This document shows positions 17,158-59,450 of a stretch of DNA of 64,000 bases, piece after piece; position 1 is the stretch's first letter, and each line of letters starts with the position of its first letter. The stretch lies in the NCBI GenBank assembly GCA_943736015.1, contig OX031071.1, forward strand, positions 560,501-624,500. The letters run 5' to 3'. The notes under the pieces were generated by a model. It was not told the DNA's origin. It did no database searches and worked only from the letters and a program-made list of their open reading frames with translations. Made by a program: the position numbers and the translations under genes. This DNA comes from Tridacna crocea (lineage: Eukaryota > Mollusca > Bivalvia > Cardiida > Cardiidae).

Positions 17158-17386
17158 TTAACCCATTCCCAAACGACAAACTTTTGGATTAGACTAAATT
17201 GAAAGCATTTGCAGACGACAATTCAACCCTTGCTGACAAGATAATTTCTGTCTATGATAAGGTAGAAAACATTGTGGGAAAAGGAGAAAATGCTGGTTAC
17301 CAGCATTTTCTCCTTTTCCCACAATGTTCTCAAAAGGCTACTATTCCAGACCCGTAAAAACCAGGGACTGTTTGGGAAAGGGTTAA
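17158..17386 (-). mobile_element. Family 1 MITE in family 2, second of three
   Basis: 229 bp with TTAA at both ends. B arm first (CAAACGACAAACTTTTGG) and perfect core CATTGTGGGAAAAGGAG...CTCCTTTTCCCACAATG. Confidence 0.85.
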
Positions 17387-17409
17387 TAAAATGTATCAAG
17401 GAGATACAT

Positions 17410-17611
17410 TCACCAATTACCACACAATCCCTACTTTTGACGATCCTGAGGAAGAAGCCTTCTGAAAATATTGTGGAAATGGAGAAAATGCTGGTAACCT
17501 TTCTTCACCATGTTTTCTACTCTTCACAAAACCAATTTCAAATATTCAGTCACATTTATTTTGTCGTCTGCAAATGCTTTCAATTTGGACAAACCTACAA
17601 TATTGAGTTAA
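17410..17611 (+). mobile_element. Family 1 MITE in family 2, third of three
   Basis: CCAATTACCACACAATCCC to TATTGAGTTAA. The hairpin is shortened: the second core arm has lost CAGCATTTTCTCC. Confidence 0.75.
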
Positions 17612-17849
17612 ACCCCCTTGTCCCAGAATTTGGATCAAATCCACTGAATGTGTTACAAGGGCAAATAATTTCCAAATACAGCCTTCAACTAATTTATTTC
17701 TCCTTTGCTCCACTTCTTCAGTGTTTACCTGTCTTTAGCAGTGAATGAATATGTATTACAAAGCTAATGAGGGCCGGAGACTGATAGCCGCCTGCAACCT
17801 TGATATCTGCCTCAAGGGCTTTAGGTAGCCAATGAAATTATACCCCACC

Positions 17850-23047: not shown

Positions 23048-23345
23048 GGTGCAGGACAACTCGCCCCAAAGACAACTCGCCCCAAGACAACTCGCCCCCA
23101 CAAAAATCTCGCCCCAAGACAACTCGCCCCCAAAGACAACTCGCCCCAAGACAACTCGCCCCCACAAAAATCTCGCCCCAAAACAACTCGCCCCCACAAA
23201 AATCTCGCCCCAAGACAACTCGCCCCCACAAAAATCTCGCCCCAAGACAACTCGCCCCACCTTCAGAAGACAACTCGCCCCAAATTTGGGGACAACTGGC
23301 ACCACATCCAAGACAACTTGCCCACATACAAGACAACTCGCCCCG
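23048..23345 (+). repeat. Left tandem-repeat inverted end
   Basis: About 18 GACAACTCGCCCC-like units, some spaced by CACAAAAATCTCGCCCCAA. Long open frames on both strands are a by-product of the repeat. Confidence 0.85.
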
Positions 23346-30708: not shown

Positions 30709-30748
30709 ATAGGGTTTTGGAGAAAAGCGGTATAACGGTCGTCCAGAG

Positions 30749-31545
30749 TGTTACGGGAGATTACTCCTTCCTTACTGCATGGCTTTCCCGTATAAAATCA
30801 ATACCTGACAGAGCTCATCTTCGCAAGCCATGGATACTAACTCCACTTTGTTCGTTTCGTACCCTTGGTCGCTCGCCTCTTTAAAAATCGAAACTTCCGC
30901 TGCGCCACCTATCGAATATCGGGAGTTGCGTAACTTTTGCTGATGTTATTTCTGGCCAATCAAAATGCTCGTAATAAAATTTGTTAGACTATGCATCAAT
31001 TACGGCTGCGCTTCCGGATTCATCACATCAAAAACAAGACGATCAGGCATACGATGATTCGCAATCATTTGGCTGTGGAACCCGTCCTAATATTTCACAT
31101 AATTGATCGTAAACTATAAAAAAAAAATCATTAAATATCGATCGTCTACTCTTTTTTGGCAAATGTACGTCATAAACACGACAATTTTCGTTTTTGACGG
31201 GCGCCGCCATTATTGTTTTCTGTTTTGCGAAAGATTTCTTGTTATGGATGGTTTGATTGGACGCGATGGGTTTTGATCGCATCCAATGAAATGGCACAGC
31301 GGGAGCTTCGATTTTTAAAGAGGCGAGCGGCCAAGGGTACTAACTTAGTATCCTTGGCTCGCGAAGATGGACAGAGCTCTGCGTCAGAGAGAATTCTCTT
31401 TGGCATAATGGTTATGGTATATTGGTCTTTTAAACCCCCCAAAACGAGAATATTTGTCCCATCAAGGGTTCGAATCCCGCCAGATGCTGTTTGTATTTGA
31501 GCAATGCATTTATTTGTTTCTTTGTTACGGACTTTGGTTGTAAAA
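30749..31545 (+). repeat. 5' LTR of TRIM copy A (interrupted)
   Basis: Starts TGTTACGGGAGATTACTCC and ends GTTACGGACTTTGG...TAAAA before the primer-binding site. A tRNA-like block carries A box TGGCATAATGG (31401) and B box GGTTCGAATC (31467-31476). The element at 30816-31369 splits it just after CAATACCT. Confidence 0.7.
30816..31369. mobile_element. 554 bp MULE-like element with ~95 bp inverted ends
   Basis: CATCTTCGCAAGCCATGGAT ACTAA ... CGCTCGCCTCTTTAAAAATC GAA at the left is mirrored by TTCGATTTTTAAAGAGGCGA ... TTAGTATCCTTGGCTCGCGA AGATG at the right. GACAGAGCT is duplicated on both sides (30807-30815 and 31370-31378). Long inverted ends with a 9 bp duplication suggest a non-autonomous Mutator-like element. 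No transposase. Confidence 0.7.
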
Positions 31546-31563
31546 TGGGGGCTCGTCCGGGAT
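31546..31563 (+). other. Primer-binding site, tRNA-Pro type
   Basis: TGGGGGCTCGTCCGGGAT directly follows the LTR. It is complementary to the 3' end of tRNA-Pro, a common retroelement primer. Confidence 0.75.
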
Positions 31564-31652
31564 TGGCCATTGATCCATTAATCCCACGTTTTGCCCCAAA
31601 ACGGACTTTCTGCCTAAAAAAGCTTTAAGCCATCAATAAATGATGACTTAAA

Positions 31653-32131
31653 CTCCCCGTGGGGTCCCGGGGGTTTTTGTATAGAATAGGACCTCAGCCT
31701 TTCTCTATGGCATGTCGTAGAAGGCGACTAAAATTAGAGACAAACGGCTGCTTTCCTCGTAATTCGTAGGATTGCAGCAGGCTGGGTAGTTCTAATTCCA
31801 AATCCTATATTTTTTTCTCGATGTAAATAGGGTTTGGAATGGGAATCAATTGGCCTGTGGGACCCCGTGTGGTTTAATCGGGGGTATAAGAATAAACCAC
31901 TGCAGTCCCGCGATCGTCACATCTGCCATTTCATCTGGCGGAACAAAAGTGACAGCATGCATGTCGTAAAAGGCGACAAAAGGGGCATCATTTTGTGTTT
32001 CATCCATTCCTCATTTATCATGTTTGTCTTGTGTTGTTCGACATGTATGTTATTTTCACCTCACATTATTGTTTACTAAGTGCGCCCAATATGACCTAAG
32101 TTGTCGACGGGCCTTAAAACACTATTCATTC
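31653..32131 (+). mobile_element. ~479 bp dimeric SINE-like insertion
   Basis: Flanked by a 13 bp target duplication ATGATGACTTAAA (31640-31652 and 32132-32144), so it retroposed into the TRIM interior. Two related halves each contain a (G)GACCCCGTGTGG / GGGGTCCCGGGGG word and ATGTCGTAGAAGGCGACTAA / ATGTCGTAAAAGGCGACAAA. It ends GGGCCTTAAAACACTATTCA TTC, a short ATTC tail. No pol III boxes assigned with confidence. Confidence 0.65.
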
Positions 32132-32153
32132 ATGATGACTTAAAGAAGGGGTG

Positions 32154-32380
32154 TGTTACGGGAGATCATTCCTTCCTCACTGCATAGCTTTCCCGTATAA
32201 AATCAATAACTGACAACTGTGTCAGAGAGAATTCTCTTTGGCTCAGTGGTTATGGTATTGGTCTTTTAAACCTCGAATAGCGAGGATATTTGTCCCTTCA
32301 AGGGTTCGAATCTCGCCAGTTGTGGTTTGTATTGAACTATGCATTTATTTGTTTCTTTGTTACGGTCTTAATTCGTAAGA
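32154..32380 (+). repeat. 3' LTR of TRIM copy A
   Basis: TGTTACGGGAGATCATTCC to TTAATTCGTAAGA, 227 bp. tRNA-like block with A box TGGCTCAGTGG (32239-32249) and B box GGTTCGAATC (32303-32312); the segment between differs from copy B, with a longer variable region. Confidence 0.75.
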
Positions 32381-32439
32381 CAGAGACCAAACAACTCTTA
32401 ACCATAGAACAAAATTTTAGGGTTGGATTGAAGTATTAG

Positions 32440-35350: not shown

Positions 35351-36787
35351 TTACAGCAGTCGGACCACAGTAACAAACTTCTTTAAAGATGGCGGGCCCC
35401 AACAGCTGATAAATAATTTGTCTCTGTAATAACACAGAGCCAAGGGTTTCTCTGTATAATCTGTAGTCTGATCTAACACCGACTTGTATCGAGTCAGATC
35501 AGCATCCAGTTTATAAACTTTGTTGTGCCACTGTGCACTTACATAAACGTTGTTATCTGGGTCTACAATGATTCCTATAGGCCTCGACCCTTTAATTGTT
35601 ATTTCTGAGATAAGTTGACCCTCAACATTTCTACAGTGTACTTTGTTATTGTACACATTCGTTATATAGACTCGTCCAGAAACAACGGCGAGATCAGGAA
35701 TGTAACCATAGATACCAGTGTCAAACTTGTTTAGCGTGTCTCCGTCTGTAGAGTAAATATAAACAGAACAGCGAGAGTCAGGATCTCTACAGACGGTAAA
35801 AATCTTGTCATCATAAAACTGTATAGACCGACATTTTTCCTCTGTTTGGATTATTTTTTGTGGTTTTGCAGGTTTTTTGCTTAAATCAATAAACATTATT
35901 TGACGTTTGTATGGTAACGTTACAGCTATCAAACATTGTTTATCCGGATCAGCCTGGTCTGTTTCAGAAATATTAGAACTACTGCCGGACACTAAGTTCG
36001 GTTCAGTAGAATTCCGTTTTAAATCTATTTCTGTAACACCCCATGGTCCAGAGTCAGACCCTACAAACCGTATACAACGTTGTAGTACGTGACTTCCCAG
36101 TTTAAATATTTTAATACAAAGATTATAAAAATCACAGACTACCAACCTTTTGTTCTCCAGTCCACACAATCCAATTATAAAACAATCCTTCTGATCCAAT
36201 TCGTGTTTTACTTCAAAGCGATCAAAAATACTTACGTGGCTGTTTTCAAACATCTCTATTCTCTCTGTTTCACTCTCAGCCATCAGATCATCCAACAGCA
36301 AGCTTCTTTTTCTATCACACTCCTCTTCCAATCTCTCACTCACACTTGTCTCTCTCTCCTCTCTCTCAATCCCCGCTTCCAGTCGCATTCGCTTTGTTTT
36401 TTTGCCCAATCCCTTTCCCTTGCTTTTTGTTCTCCCACTCAAACCCTGCTCGCCCATTCTGGCACTCTCACTTGTCTCTCTCCCATTCTCTCTCTCGCTC
36501 TCCTTCCTCCACACTTTCATACCCTTATGAGATTTGTGTTTAGGCAAACAGTTTACGCAGACATATATCTCGCAAGCAAAACAAAGAAAAACAGCCACCC
36601 TCTCATACCAACCCTTACCCTCGTACAAACTCTTACTCACACAACTTTCACAAATAACCGATTTCCTCTCTCTCTCAACAACACTCAGTTCCTCTAACTT
36701 TATCTGTGTGTAGATTTCTTCTTCTTCTTCCGATGTTTCTCTCTCCTCATCACTGATGTCCAACCTGCTGTAAATGAGCTCTGCCAT
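35351..36787 (-). CDS. B-box zinc finger / beta-propeller protein (TRIM-like, no RING)
   Basis: Single uninterrupted 478-codon frame from ATG at 36787 to a stop at 35351; no intron needed. After an acidic start (residues 12-40, ERETSEEEEE) there is a C6H2 zinc-binding pattern: C46-x2-C49-x19-C69-x2-C72-x4-C77-x2-C80-x3-H84-x2-H87. This fits a B-box of the TRIM superfamily (B-box 1-like). Residues 90-195 are highly charged, rich in RERE/ERETS, and may form a coiled coil around 130-185. Residues 200-478 show repeated blade-like strands (LVVCDFYNLCIKIFKLG, DLAVVSGRVYITNVYNNKV, PIGIIVDPDNNVYVSAQWHN, PLALCYYRDKLFISCWG) typical of NHL/WD-like propellers in TRIM2/3/56/71-like proteins. No RING precedes the B-box, so ubiquitin-ligase activity cannot be assumed; it may act as an adaptor that binds protein or RNA. 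Mollusc genomes carry many such genes, and a role in innate immunity is often proposed, but that is inference. A family 1 MITE begins 49 bp upstream of the start codon. Confidence 0.88.
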   Translation of the reverse strand: MAELIYSRLDISDEERETSEEEEEIYTQIKLEELSVVERERKSVICESCVSKSLYEGKGWYERVAVFLCFACEIYVCVNCLPKHKSHKGMKVWRKESERENGRETSESARMGEQGLSGRTKSKGKGLGKKTKRMRLEAGIEREERETSVSERLEEECDRKRSLLLDDLMAESETERIEMFENSHVSIFDRFEVKHELDQKDCFIIGLCGLENKRLVVCDFYNLCIKIFKLGSHVLQRCIRFVGSDSGPWGVTEIDLKRNSTEPNLVSGSSSNISETDQADPDKQCLIAVTLPYKRQIMFIDLSKKPAKPQKIIQTEEKCRSIQFYDDKIFTVCRDPDSRCSVYIYSTDGDTLNKFDTGIYGYIPDLAVVSGRVYITNVYNNKVHCRNVEGQLISEITIKGSRPIGIIVDPDNNVYVSAQWHNKVYKLDADLTRYKSVLDQTTDYTEKPLALCYYRDKLFISCWGPPSLKKFVTVVRLL

Positions 36788-45300: not shown

Positions 45301-45774
45301 AGGTCAGTGAGTCGCGCTTAGCAGCATAAGGGTTAAACCGTGTACGTGATCGACTAAACTAAAGAGTGCGGTAAAAAACAACCTTGTAACAGGTTTTGCA
45401 TGGAGATCCCTTTCCATATTTCTCGTGGACTAATGGTTGGCTTTGCAATGTCTTGCTCAAGGGCTCTTTCACGTTACCTAAAGTGCCAGCAGCGGTCAGT
45501 TCAGAATTTCCTTTTTAAAAACCTCACAGTGGTTTGGAATAACACAAAATTCAGTGATTTGAACCTGATTCGATTTGTCGTGAGCATCATGCTTTATGAT
45601 ATCCATGGACGAGTCTAAAGGTTATATGCAGTAAGAGAAATGTTTGCCGTTAAAATAACAGGTCGGTCCATTTGCCAAATCTGGAATTCTTAAGCCGTCA
45701 TCGTTTTTTGTTTTTTATGATCTGATATAATCGATGTGTGGTTTTGACCGTTATACATTCATACCAGCATATAT

Positions 45775-45982
45775 TCTTACGAACGAAGTCCGTAACAAAG
45801 AAACAAATGAATAAATGCATGGCAGAAATAAGGATCGGAGCGGGATTCGAACTCCGAACTCCCGGACGCAAAGCCAATACCCTAACCACTGAGCCAAAGA
45901 GATATCTCTCTGACGCAGTAGCCAGGTATTGTATTTAAATCGGGAGTATATGCCATGCAGGAAGGAGTGGTCTCCCGTAACA
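45775..45982 (-). repeat. 3' LTR of TRIM copy B, with tRNA-like block
   Basis: On the minus strand it starts TGTTACGGGAGACCACTCC and ends ACTTCGTTCGTAAGA. Inside, A box TGGCTCAGTGG (45896-45886) and B box GTTCGAATCC (45852-45843) have tRNA-like spacing, with an anticodon-arm-like TTGGCTTTGCGTCCGG between. A pol III promoter could thus drive transcription from within the LTR. Confidence 0.75.
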
Positions 45983-46080
45983 CACCCCCTCTTAAAGTCA
46001 TCATTTATTGATGACTCAAAGCCTTATTAGGCAGGAAGTCCGATTTTGGACAACAAATGGGATTAATGGCTCAATGGCCA

Positions 46081-46098
46081 ATCCCGGACGAGCCCCCA
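46081..46098 (-). other. Primer-binding site, tRNA-Pro type
   Basis: TGGGGGCTCGTCCGGGAT on the minus strand, abutting the 5' LTR with no gap. Identical to the site in copy A. Confidence 0.8.
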
Positions 46099-46306
46099 TC
46101 TTACGAACGAAGTCCGTAACAAAGAAACAAATGAATAAATGCATGGCAGAAATAAGGATCGGAGCGGGATTCGAACTCCGAACTCCCGGACGCAAAGCCA
46201 ATACCCTAACCACTGAGCCAAAGAGATATCTCTCTGACGCAGTAGCCAGGTATTGTATTTAAATCGGGAGTATATGCCATGCAGGAAGGAGTGGTCTCCC
46301 GTAACA
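46099..46306 (-). repeat. 5' LTR of TRIM copy B
   Basis: Same 208 bp as 45775-45982, with no difference seen by eye. A and B boxes are at the same offsets. Confidence 0.8.
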
Positions 46307-46311
46307 ATATA

Positions 46312-48130: not shown

Positions 48131-48392
48131 TGCTTTTGCAAGGTACTTTTAAATAGACCACGCTAAAATTTCACTTCTCAGAGAATCAAAATGATGTCTG
48201 TAATATTTCTATGAGGAACTGTAACATATGTAACACACTGAGTTACGTTTGGCCGTAACTCTTCTTTGGATCGTATTGGGGATTTTAGTTTACTACTCTT
48301 TGGTCTATTGCAATACAAGTAAAATACCCAAACCACCCAAACATTAACTAAAAACATGAACCAGTTCCTTTGGTAAAACCCTTCACGGTTTC

Positions 48393-48620
48393 TTAACCCT
48401 TTCCCAAAAAATCCCTGGTTTTTACGGGTCTGAAATAGTAGCCTTTTGAAAATATGTGGGAAAAGGAGAAAATACTGGTAACCAGCATTTTCTCCTTTTC
48501 CCACAATGTTTTCTACCCTATCATAGACAGAAATCATCTTTTCAGCAAGATTTGAATTGTCGTCTGCAAATGATTTCAATTTGGTCTAGTCTAAAAATTT
48601 GTCGTTTGGGAAAGGGTTAA
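48393..48620 (+). mobile_element. Family 1 MITE, complete
   Basis: TTAACCCTTTCCCAAAAAAT to TCGTTTGGGAAAGGGTTAA, TTAA both ends. Confidence 0.85.
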
Positions 48621-50448: not shown

Positions 50449-50869
50449 ATGATATTTTGGTTTCATATGCAGGAGCTTGCTCACTCTTGTCATAAATGTG
50501 CCAGGAAAACGGGAGCCGTCGCATGAACATGGTCACATTTTGGAGCAATCGTAAATCACTCTATATTTATACCAATGTTAATGCCAAGATGTAAATCAAA
50601 AGCCAGAGGGAAAATTGACGAAAGTCTCATAAACTATTCTTTTTCAATTTATGCGAAATTTAACGATATAAAATCTTATTTACCCATTACACGAGTCGTC
50701 GACGTCTGAGCAGTGAGATACATGCCAATGGTTTTACAATGATTAGATGGCATTTTAGCACTCAGAAAACCTACGACAGGCTTAAAGTTTCAACTCAGGT
50801 TACGCTATGCAGTCCAAAAAAGGATAATACGTATTGGTCGATACTTGTCCCTCGGATGCTCGAAGGCAT

Positions 50870-51072
50870 AGATCATGAATGGCTTTCGAAAACATTGCGG
50901 GAAAAGGACGAAATGCTAGTGACAAACATTTTTCACCTTTTCCCACAATGTTTTCTACATGTACCTAATCAAAGACAGAAACCTCCAGTTAAGCTACATT
51001 TAATTAGTCGTCTGCAATTGCTTTTATTTGGTCTGGTAAAAAAAAAAGGCAATTTAGTAAAGATTTCATTGT
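50870..51072 (+). mobile_element. Family 1 MITE
   Basis: GGCTTTCGAAAACATTGCGG GAAAAGGACGAAATGCT, right arm CTTTTCCCACAATGTTTTCT, AGTCGTCTGCAATTGCTTTT. Confidence 0.6.
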
Positions 51073-51386
51073 AAAAAAAAAAACCTAGCCTGTGTTCCAG
51101 CCCGATCATTTTTGTTTTCTCTTTTATATTCGGACTTTACTCTGTCAAAAATACAGGGTCATTTTTTGATAAATTTACGTCCAAATGTAAAGATGGGAAA
51201 AATGATTGGACTGAAATCCTGGGAGAGTAAAAACCATACAGGTACTACAGAAAAACGGTAGATGCGGATAGAGGTAATTAGCGGATTACATTTATCGATA
51301 ATCTCCTAGCTTCTGAGATGACCCCCGCTCAAAATATCCGTACTCCGTGCTTTTATTCCTTACTCGGTGTCGGCTTGTACATCTCT

Positions 51387-58739: not shown

Positions 58740-59450
58740 TTGTACGTTTGAGTTTAGAGGAGACCAGTATTGCATAGAAATAAGATTGTATGTTACAAGA
58801 ATGTGATTTCTGATCTTAATTTATGTCGTCAGAAAAAAAAAGGTATTTCTGCTTTTCGTTGAAAGGGTTAAACAGAGAAAGCAAGAATGGATGCCAACAA
58901 GACATTGTGTCAGGCGACCAGTATTACCCAAAGATCAGATTGTATGTTACAAGGGTGTGATATCTGATCTTGATCTATGTCGCCAGCAAAAAAGTTATTT
59001 CTGCTTTTCGCTGAAAGGGTTAACCCATTACCACACAATCCCTACTTTTGACGCCCCTGAGAAAAAAAGCCTTCTAAAAACATTGTGGGAAAAGGAGAAA
59101 ATGCTGGAAAACAGCATTTTCTCCTTTTCCCACAATGTTTTCTACCCTTCCCAAATCAAATTAAAATTTTTCAGTCACATTTACTTTGTCGTCTGCAAAT
59201 GCTTTCAATTTGGACCAGTCAATAAATTTGTTATTTGGTAAAGAGTTAAACAGAGAAAGCAAGAATGGATATCAACAAGACATTGCACCAGACAACCAAA
59301 ATACACAAAGATCAAATTGTATGTTACATGAATGTGATGTCTGATCTCTATCAATGTCATCAGCAAGAAAAAGTTATTTCTTTTTTTCGCCGAAAGGGTT
59401 AAACAGAGAAAGCAAGACATTGCATCAGACAAACAAAAGGCACAAAAGTA
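58740..59450 (+). repeat. ~152 bp tandem array with family 3 core
   Basis: Units contain GGGTTAAACAGAGAAAGCAA G, CAACAAGACATTG, AGATCA(A/G)ATTGTATGTTACA, TGTGATNTCTGATCT and GTTATTTCTGCTTTTCGCTG AAA. Unit joints are at 58866, 59020/59249 (with a MITE between) and 59398. Confidence 0.8.
59020..59249 (+). mobile_element. Family 1 MITE at the TTAA of a repeat unit
   Basis: TTAA at both ends (59020-59023 and 59246-59249). The neighbouring empty sites at 58866 and 59398 read GAAAGGGTTAAACAGAGAAA, so removal of the insert plus one TTAA restores the unit exactly. Confidence 0.9.

Follow-up and report, generated by a model that had tools for sequence, protein, structure and literature searches.

What kind of element occupies positions 45775-46306 of the 64,000-nt stretch of DNA analysed here (the window), and do its LTRs carry a tRNA-type promoter? 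Here we report that it is very probably a TRIM of the Helenus type, i.e., an LTR retrotransposon that is non-autonomous and has tRNA-type pol III boxes in its LTRs. The observed features of the element are paired LTRs, a primer site, a purine tract, a flanking duplication, two members in the window, and boxes in all four of their LTRs.

The element at 45775-46306, hereafter copy B, is a complete TRIM of 532 bp (i.e., under 1000 bp) arranged as LTR-interior-LTR, and it reads on the minus strand, a correction to the earlier sequence-only reading of this DNA. Its 5' LTR (46099-46306, minus strand) and 3' LTR (45775-45982, minus strand) are each 208 bp long and were found by BLAST and alignment to be identical at 208 of 208 bases; copy B is therefore probably young, and probably represents a recent insertion. 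The interior (45983-46098, minus strand) measures 116 bp and contains no ORF of at least 120 aa; none in the ORF list of the 64,000-nt window overlaps any part of the copy. Abutting the 5' LTR is an 18-nt primer-binding site, TGGGGGCTCGTCCGGGAT (46081-46098, minus strand), which we take to be the complement of the tRNA-Pro 3' end. With up to 3 mismatches allowed, this sequence has two matches in the window, one in each copy of the element, and none in 100 shuffles. At the other end of the interior, the polypurine tract AAGAGGGGG (45985-45993, minus strand) is followed by TG, and the interior terminates in AAGAGGGGGTG just before the 3' LTR. The sequence-only reading had claimed LTRs of 208 bp, an 18 bp tRNA-Pro primer site abutting the LTR, a noncoding interior of 116 bp and a polypurine tract, and all of these are in place, tRNA-Pro being the presumed primer. 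Its 5 bp target site duplication is not: with these ends only 4 bp, ATAT, are repeated (45771-45774 and 46307-46310), the five bases on either side being TATAT at the end of one flank and ATATA at the start of the other, and this repeat weighs little because the flanks are AT-rich. An interior hairpin, GTCATCAATAAATGATGAC (45997-46015), adjoins the purine tract of copy B and is mostly retained in the second copy; the surrounding 41 nt fold at -12.7 kcal/mol, a value that stands without a shuffle control.

The second family member, copy A, lies on the plus strand at 30749-32380, likewise arranged as LTR-interior-LTR, and is an older relative of copy B. Its span of 1632 bp, by the coordinates of the earlier reading, is inflated by two nested insertions of 554 and 479 bp. 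The first (30816-31369, with no strand assigned) splits the 5' LTR (30749-31545, plus strand); its inverted ends and its 9 bp flanking repeat GACAGAGCT, of which a tenth base matches too, are presumably those of a Mutator-like non-autonomous DNA transposon, for which inverted ends with a repeat of 9-10 bp would speak. The second (31653-32131, plus strand) interrupts the interior, has a ATTCATTC end, and is flanked by a 13 bp repeat, ATGATGACTTAAA; from that end and the repeat we presume a SINE or a truncated LINE. The primer-binding site (31546-31563, plus strand) has the same sequence as that of copy B, the polypurine tract AAAGAAGGGG lies at 32142-32151 (plus strand), the 3' LTR of 227 bp at 32154-32380 (plus strand), and the whole is flanked by a 5 bp duplication, CAGAG, at 30744-30748 and 32381-32385. 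Without the 479 bp insert the interior of copy A is 116 bp long and identical to that of copy B at 102 of 116 positions. Within copy A, the alignment of the two LTRs has 198 matching positions out of 227 and 7 gap columns; against the copy B LTR, the 5' LTR matches at 143 of 207 positions with 28 gap columns and the 3' LTR at 145 of 206 with 23. Both copies have the same short form, and therefore at least two insertions have occurred and an LTR with boxes did not arise as a single accident. BLAST of both copies found no third copy within the window, the matches elsewhere being scattered stretches of 18-30 bp. Scans of contigs from viruses, bacteria and archaea with exact patterns, drawn from the LTR tail and from the regions of box A and the primer site, found 0 matches, which says little about the host because the collections are confined to those three groups.

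Promoter boxes were sought on both strands of the window as an exact box A (TRGYNNARNGG, or one N longer) paired with a box B (GGTTCGANTCC, at most 1 mismatch), with box starts 22-80 bp apart. Four pairs were found, one per LTR and nowhere else in the window. When box B was also required to be exact, the pair in the copy A 5' LTR alone was found, and tolerating one mismatch in box A too brought out a single additional pair, again within the copy A 5' LTR. In 20 shuffled windows the mean number of pairs was 0.0, 0.0 and 0.2 at box A/box B mismatches of (0,0), (0,1) and (1,1), respectively. On the minus strand of copy B, box A (TGGCTCAGTGG in the 5' LTR) occupies 46210-46220 and 45886-45896, and box B (AGTTCGAATCC in the 5' LTR, one mismatch to GGTTCGANTCC) occupies 46167-46177 and 45843-45853, in the 5' and 3' LTR respectively. 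On the plus strand of copy A, box A lies at 31401-31411 in the 5' LTR (TGGCATAATGG, which the loose consensus still fits) and at 32239-32249 in the 3' LTR, and box B at 31467-31477 (an exact GGTTCGAATCC) and 32303-32313 (one mismatch). As the sequence-only reading had it, TGGCTCAGTGG and GTTCGAATCC are present inside each copy B LTR at tRNA spacing, their starts being 43 bp apart, which is about the box spacing of ordinary tRNA genes; in copy A the distance is 66 bp in the 5' LTR and 64 bp in the 3' LTR. Each of the four LTRs also has, one base upstream of its box A, a perfect 12 bp palindrome (46222-46233 and 45898-45909 in copy B; 31388-31399 and 32226-32237 in copy A), with a centre that reads GATATC in copy B and GAATTC in copy A and is palindromic in both.

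The description of these LTRs as “tRNA-like” can be kept for the boxes and, in copy B, for their spacing; it does not extend to a recognisable tRNA, and a functional tRNA in the LTR was rejected, none being called by ARAGORN at its default settings or by Rfam. The Rfam rows returned (1 in one search, 9 in the copy B 5' LTR with a best E of 0.045, and 5 in the copy A 3' LTR) belong to other families, lie far under the gathering scores, and were treated as chance hits. No row for 5S rRNA was returned at E <=10 in the copy B 5' LTR or the copy A 3' LTR. Loosened ARAGORN settings (introns allowed, low threshold) produced 172 calls in copy B and 145 in the copy A 3' LTR, and these were dropped as undiscriminating; among the calls listed, most overlapped and many wrapped round the ends.

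Are the boxes conserved beyond the LTR sequence around them, as the sequence-only reading had considered? Spacers, tails and heads of the LTRs were aligned and compared with single-letter shuffles. Between the two copies the box spacer cannot be aligned, as 653 and 495 of 2000 shuffles did equally well, whereas the spacers of the two copy A LTRs are clearly homologous to each other (35/42, 0 of 2000 shuffles). The LTR tails of copies A and B align well (0 of 2000 shuffles each), as does the head of the copy A 3' LTR with copy B, the one head tested (0 of 2000). Box B with its neighbours, GTTCGAATCCCGC, is exact in the copy A 5' LTR and copy B (0 of 2000 shuffles), and the copy A 3' LTR shares with copy B a box B match of 9 bp, a length reached in 49 of 2000 shuffles. 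The stretch past box B aligns between the copy A 5' LTR and copy B (0 of 2000) and, for the copy A 3' LTR and copy B, was equalled in 1004 of 2000. The 9 bp match and this uneven alignment past box B count against the reading given here. Box B persists next to a spacer that cannot be aligned; the conservation of box A is not specific because it sits in a longer conserved block. The related claim that copy A keeps both boxes despite a differing intervening sequence is borne out, the boxes being present in both of its LTRs and the spacer unalignable with that of copy B. As a lead from two copies, box B appears to have persisted while the adjacent spacer turned over.

Based on these boxes, we propose a life cycle that would begin with pol III initiating in the 5' LTR, a short way ahead of box A, and reading through the element; for copy B we infer this read-through because its sense strand contains no run of four Ts. 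Such an absence of TTTT from 324 bp (LTR plus interior of copy B) has a chance of 0.017 in dinucleotide and 0.058 in mononucleotide shuffles, and the first TTTT downstream lies 120 bp past the 3' LTR. The LTR of copy B lacks a canonical pol III terminator. The RNA would run into or beyond the 3' LTR, and LTR sequence would therefore be common to both of its ends. Priming would be by tRNA-Pro for the first strand and by the purine tract for the second, with reverse transcriptase and integrase supplied in trans by a Gypsy-type element.

Judged by its sequence, the element has pol III as its main promoter on the reading we somewhat favour. The competing view, that pol II transcribes this TRIM and that the tRNA-type boxes are passengers left from a SINE that inserted long ago, we consider unlikely though deserving of weight. 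TATAAA is found 43 bp ahead of box A in both copy A LTRs, with TTTAAA at a like place in copy B, and in both LTRs of copy A a TTTT falls between the boxes (31428 and 32264), in addition to one in its own interior (31589). The TATAAA and the TTTT between the boxes speak for pol II; the TATAAA of copy A would, however, suit either polymerase, and the TTTT runs of copy A could stop pol III. The TTTT between the boxes lies within CTTTTAA, which resembles the anticodon loop of tRNA-Lys-TTT, and tRNA-Lys-TTT genes contain CTTTTAA yet are transcribed. Against the pol II view, box B persists next to a preceding spacer that has lost all alignable similarity, the copy B LTR has neither AATAAA nor ATTAAA, and the boxes of copy B keep the spacing of ordinary tRNA genes. 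Pol III transcription of Helenus itself is, according to PMC10886601, not yet experimentally shown, and copy B, with its identical LTRs, may be a good template for testing it.

Helenus elements are TRIMs carrying tRNA-derived LTR sequence, reported from fungi, animals and one plant (Kojima 2024, PMC10886601), a source beyond which we found no literature on them. Their 51 bivalve families come from five pteriomorph orders (PMC10886601), contrary to the sequence-only statement that no described bivalve family is like this element; because Helenus was named in 2024 (PMC10886601), the element is a new example of a described kind. Copies A and B represent a new member of that kind, or possibly a published family. 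Like Helenus, the element is a TRIM of under 1 kb with tRNA-type boxes in the LTRs, a primer site and a purine tract. Published lengths are 311 to 1263 bp, bivalve primers include tRNA-Pro, and animal duplications are 4 bp (PMC10886601); compared by description, the anatomy and the tRNA-Pro primer match the animal families, the 4 bp duplication of copy B, in its AT-rich flanks, may agree with them, and the 5 bp duplication of copy A differs from them. The tRNA origin of Helenus was recognised with Censor and tRNAscan-SE (PMC10886601), whereas copies A and B yielded no tRNA with default ARAGORN or Rfam. The Helenus box A motif is found in copy B and in the copy A 3' LTR, the copy A 5' LTR having TRGCA, and the box B start GGTTC, called conserved in PMC10886601, is present in both copy A LTRs but replaced by AGTTC in copy B. 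In Figure 2 of PMC10886601, molluscan Helenus are aligned with Aplysia tRNA-Lys-TTT. The primer sites of animal Helenus resemble those of Gypsy elements only, including Gypsy-13_CGi with tRNA-Pro (PMC10886601).

Two other origins were weighed against membership of Helenus. A TRIM lineage that acquired its boxes separately from the published bivalve Helenus, and so resembles them in kind and not by descent, would fit the several Helenus origins argued for in PMC10886601 and the 5 bp duplication of copy A; the primer type, the size and the box placement fit published animal Helenus instead, as may the 4 bp duplication of copy B, and we regard separate capture as rather doubtful. That copy B arose by deletion from a larger LTR element with a one-off SINE in its LTR, belonging to no family, is highly improbable given two separate insertions that both have a 116 bp interior. 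The sequence-only reading had named such a one-off SINE insertion as what would overturn it, and the boxes are matched in position across the four LTRs.

A Helenus-type TRIM may also be set beside other small elements. Cassandra of plants, as outlined in PMC10886601, is a TRIM with a 5S rRNA-derived promoter in its LTRs; the present element is likewise a TRIM whose LTRs bear pol III promoter sequence, and it differs from Cassandra so described in that no 5S match was found in the copy B 5' LTR or the copy A 3' LTR. The earlier view of it as an animal counterpart of Cassandra with a tRNA-type promoter agrees with the anatomy and with a box B surviving amid unalignable sequence, and the activity of that promoter is inferred. 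Ajax of nemerteans, with a 5S-derived promoter, a tRNA-Leu primer and 5 bp duplications (PMC10886601), is again an animal TRIM whose LTRs contain a pol III promoter sequence, distinguished by its tRNA-Leu primer and by the 5S derivation, for which the same two LTRs gave no match. The bivalve biv-TRIM (Satovic 2019, PMC6934838) is a TRIM without a clear primer site, and shares with copies A and B its class and, on the sequence-only reading's assignment of the host to bivalves, its setting, but not the primer site that they possess. Its conserved interior segment TGATCCCAAAGGAC is absent from both copies, the best match on either strand having 5 of 14 positions mismatched in copy B and 4 of 14 in copy A. 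TRIMs of ants are the subject of a separate paper (PMC3532108).

The two copies allow one further, tentative and on balance improbable, suggestion: that the promoter is modular, its spacer (42 bp in copy A, 21 bp in copy B, with no homology detected) having been exchanged while box B, both ends of the LTR and the interior were retained, in a host that may lie outside the range of bivalve Helenus. Such an exchange would look like the renewed capture of a piece of tRNA or SINE, with selection keeping the two boxes workably spaced. Turnover of the box spacer in an otherwise alike family is not discussed in the main text of PMC10886601. The changed spacer can be viewed as a small natural experiment on promoter requirements, and the element, picked out of raw sequence, as an independent case of the SINE-LTR element hybrids described not long ago.

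Elsewhere in the window, open frames at 17266-17748, 48178-48585, 50664-51074 and 58807-59241 contain common phrases (LWEKEKMLVTSIFSFSHNVF or KRLLFQTRKNQG), and these probably belong to a common dispersed repeat, because the frame at 48181-48585 (minus strand) has 221 database relatives. A tandem array at 23055-23258 has a period of 32 bp, 6.4 copies and 91% matches, and long frames on both strands read through it. A frame of 478 aa at 35351-36787 (minus strand) matches an NHL repeat (Pfam PF01436, E 4.5e-05) and, with 84 database relatives at identities of up to 70%, appears to belong to an expanded gene family.
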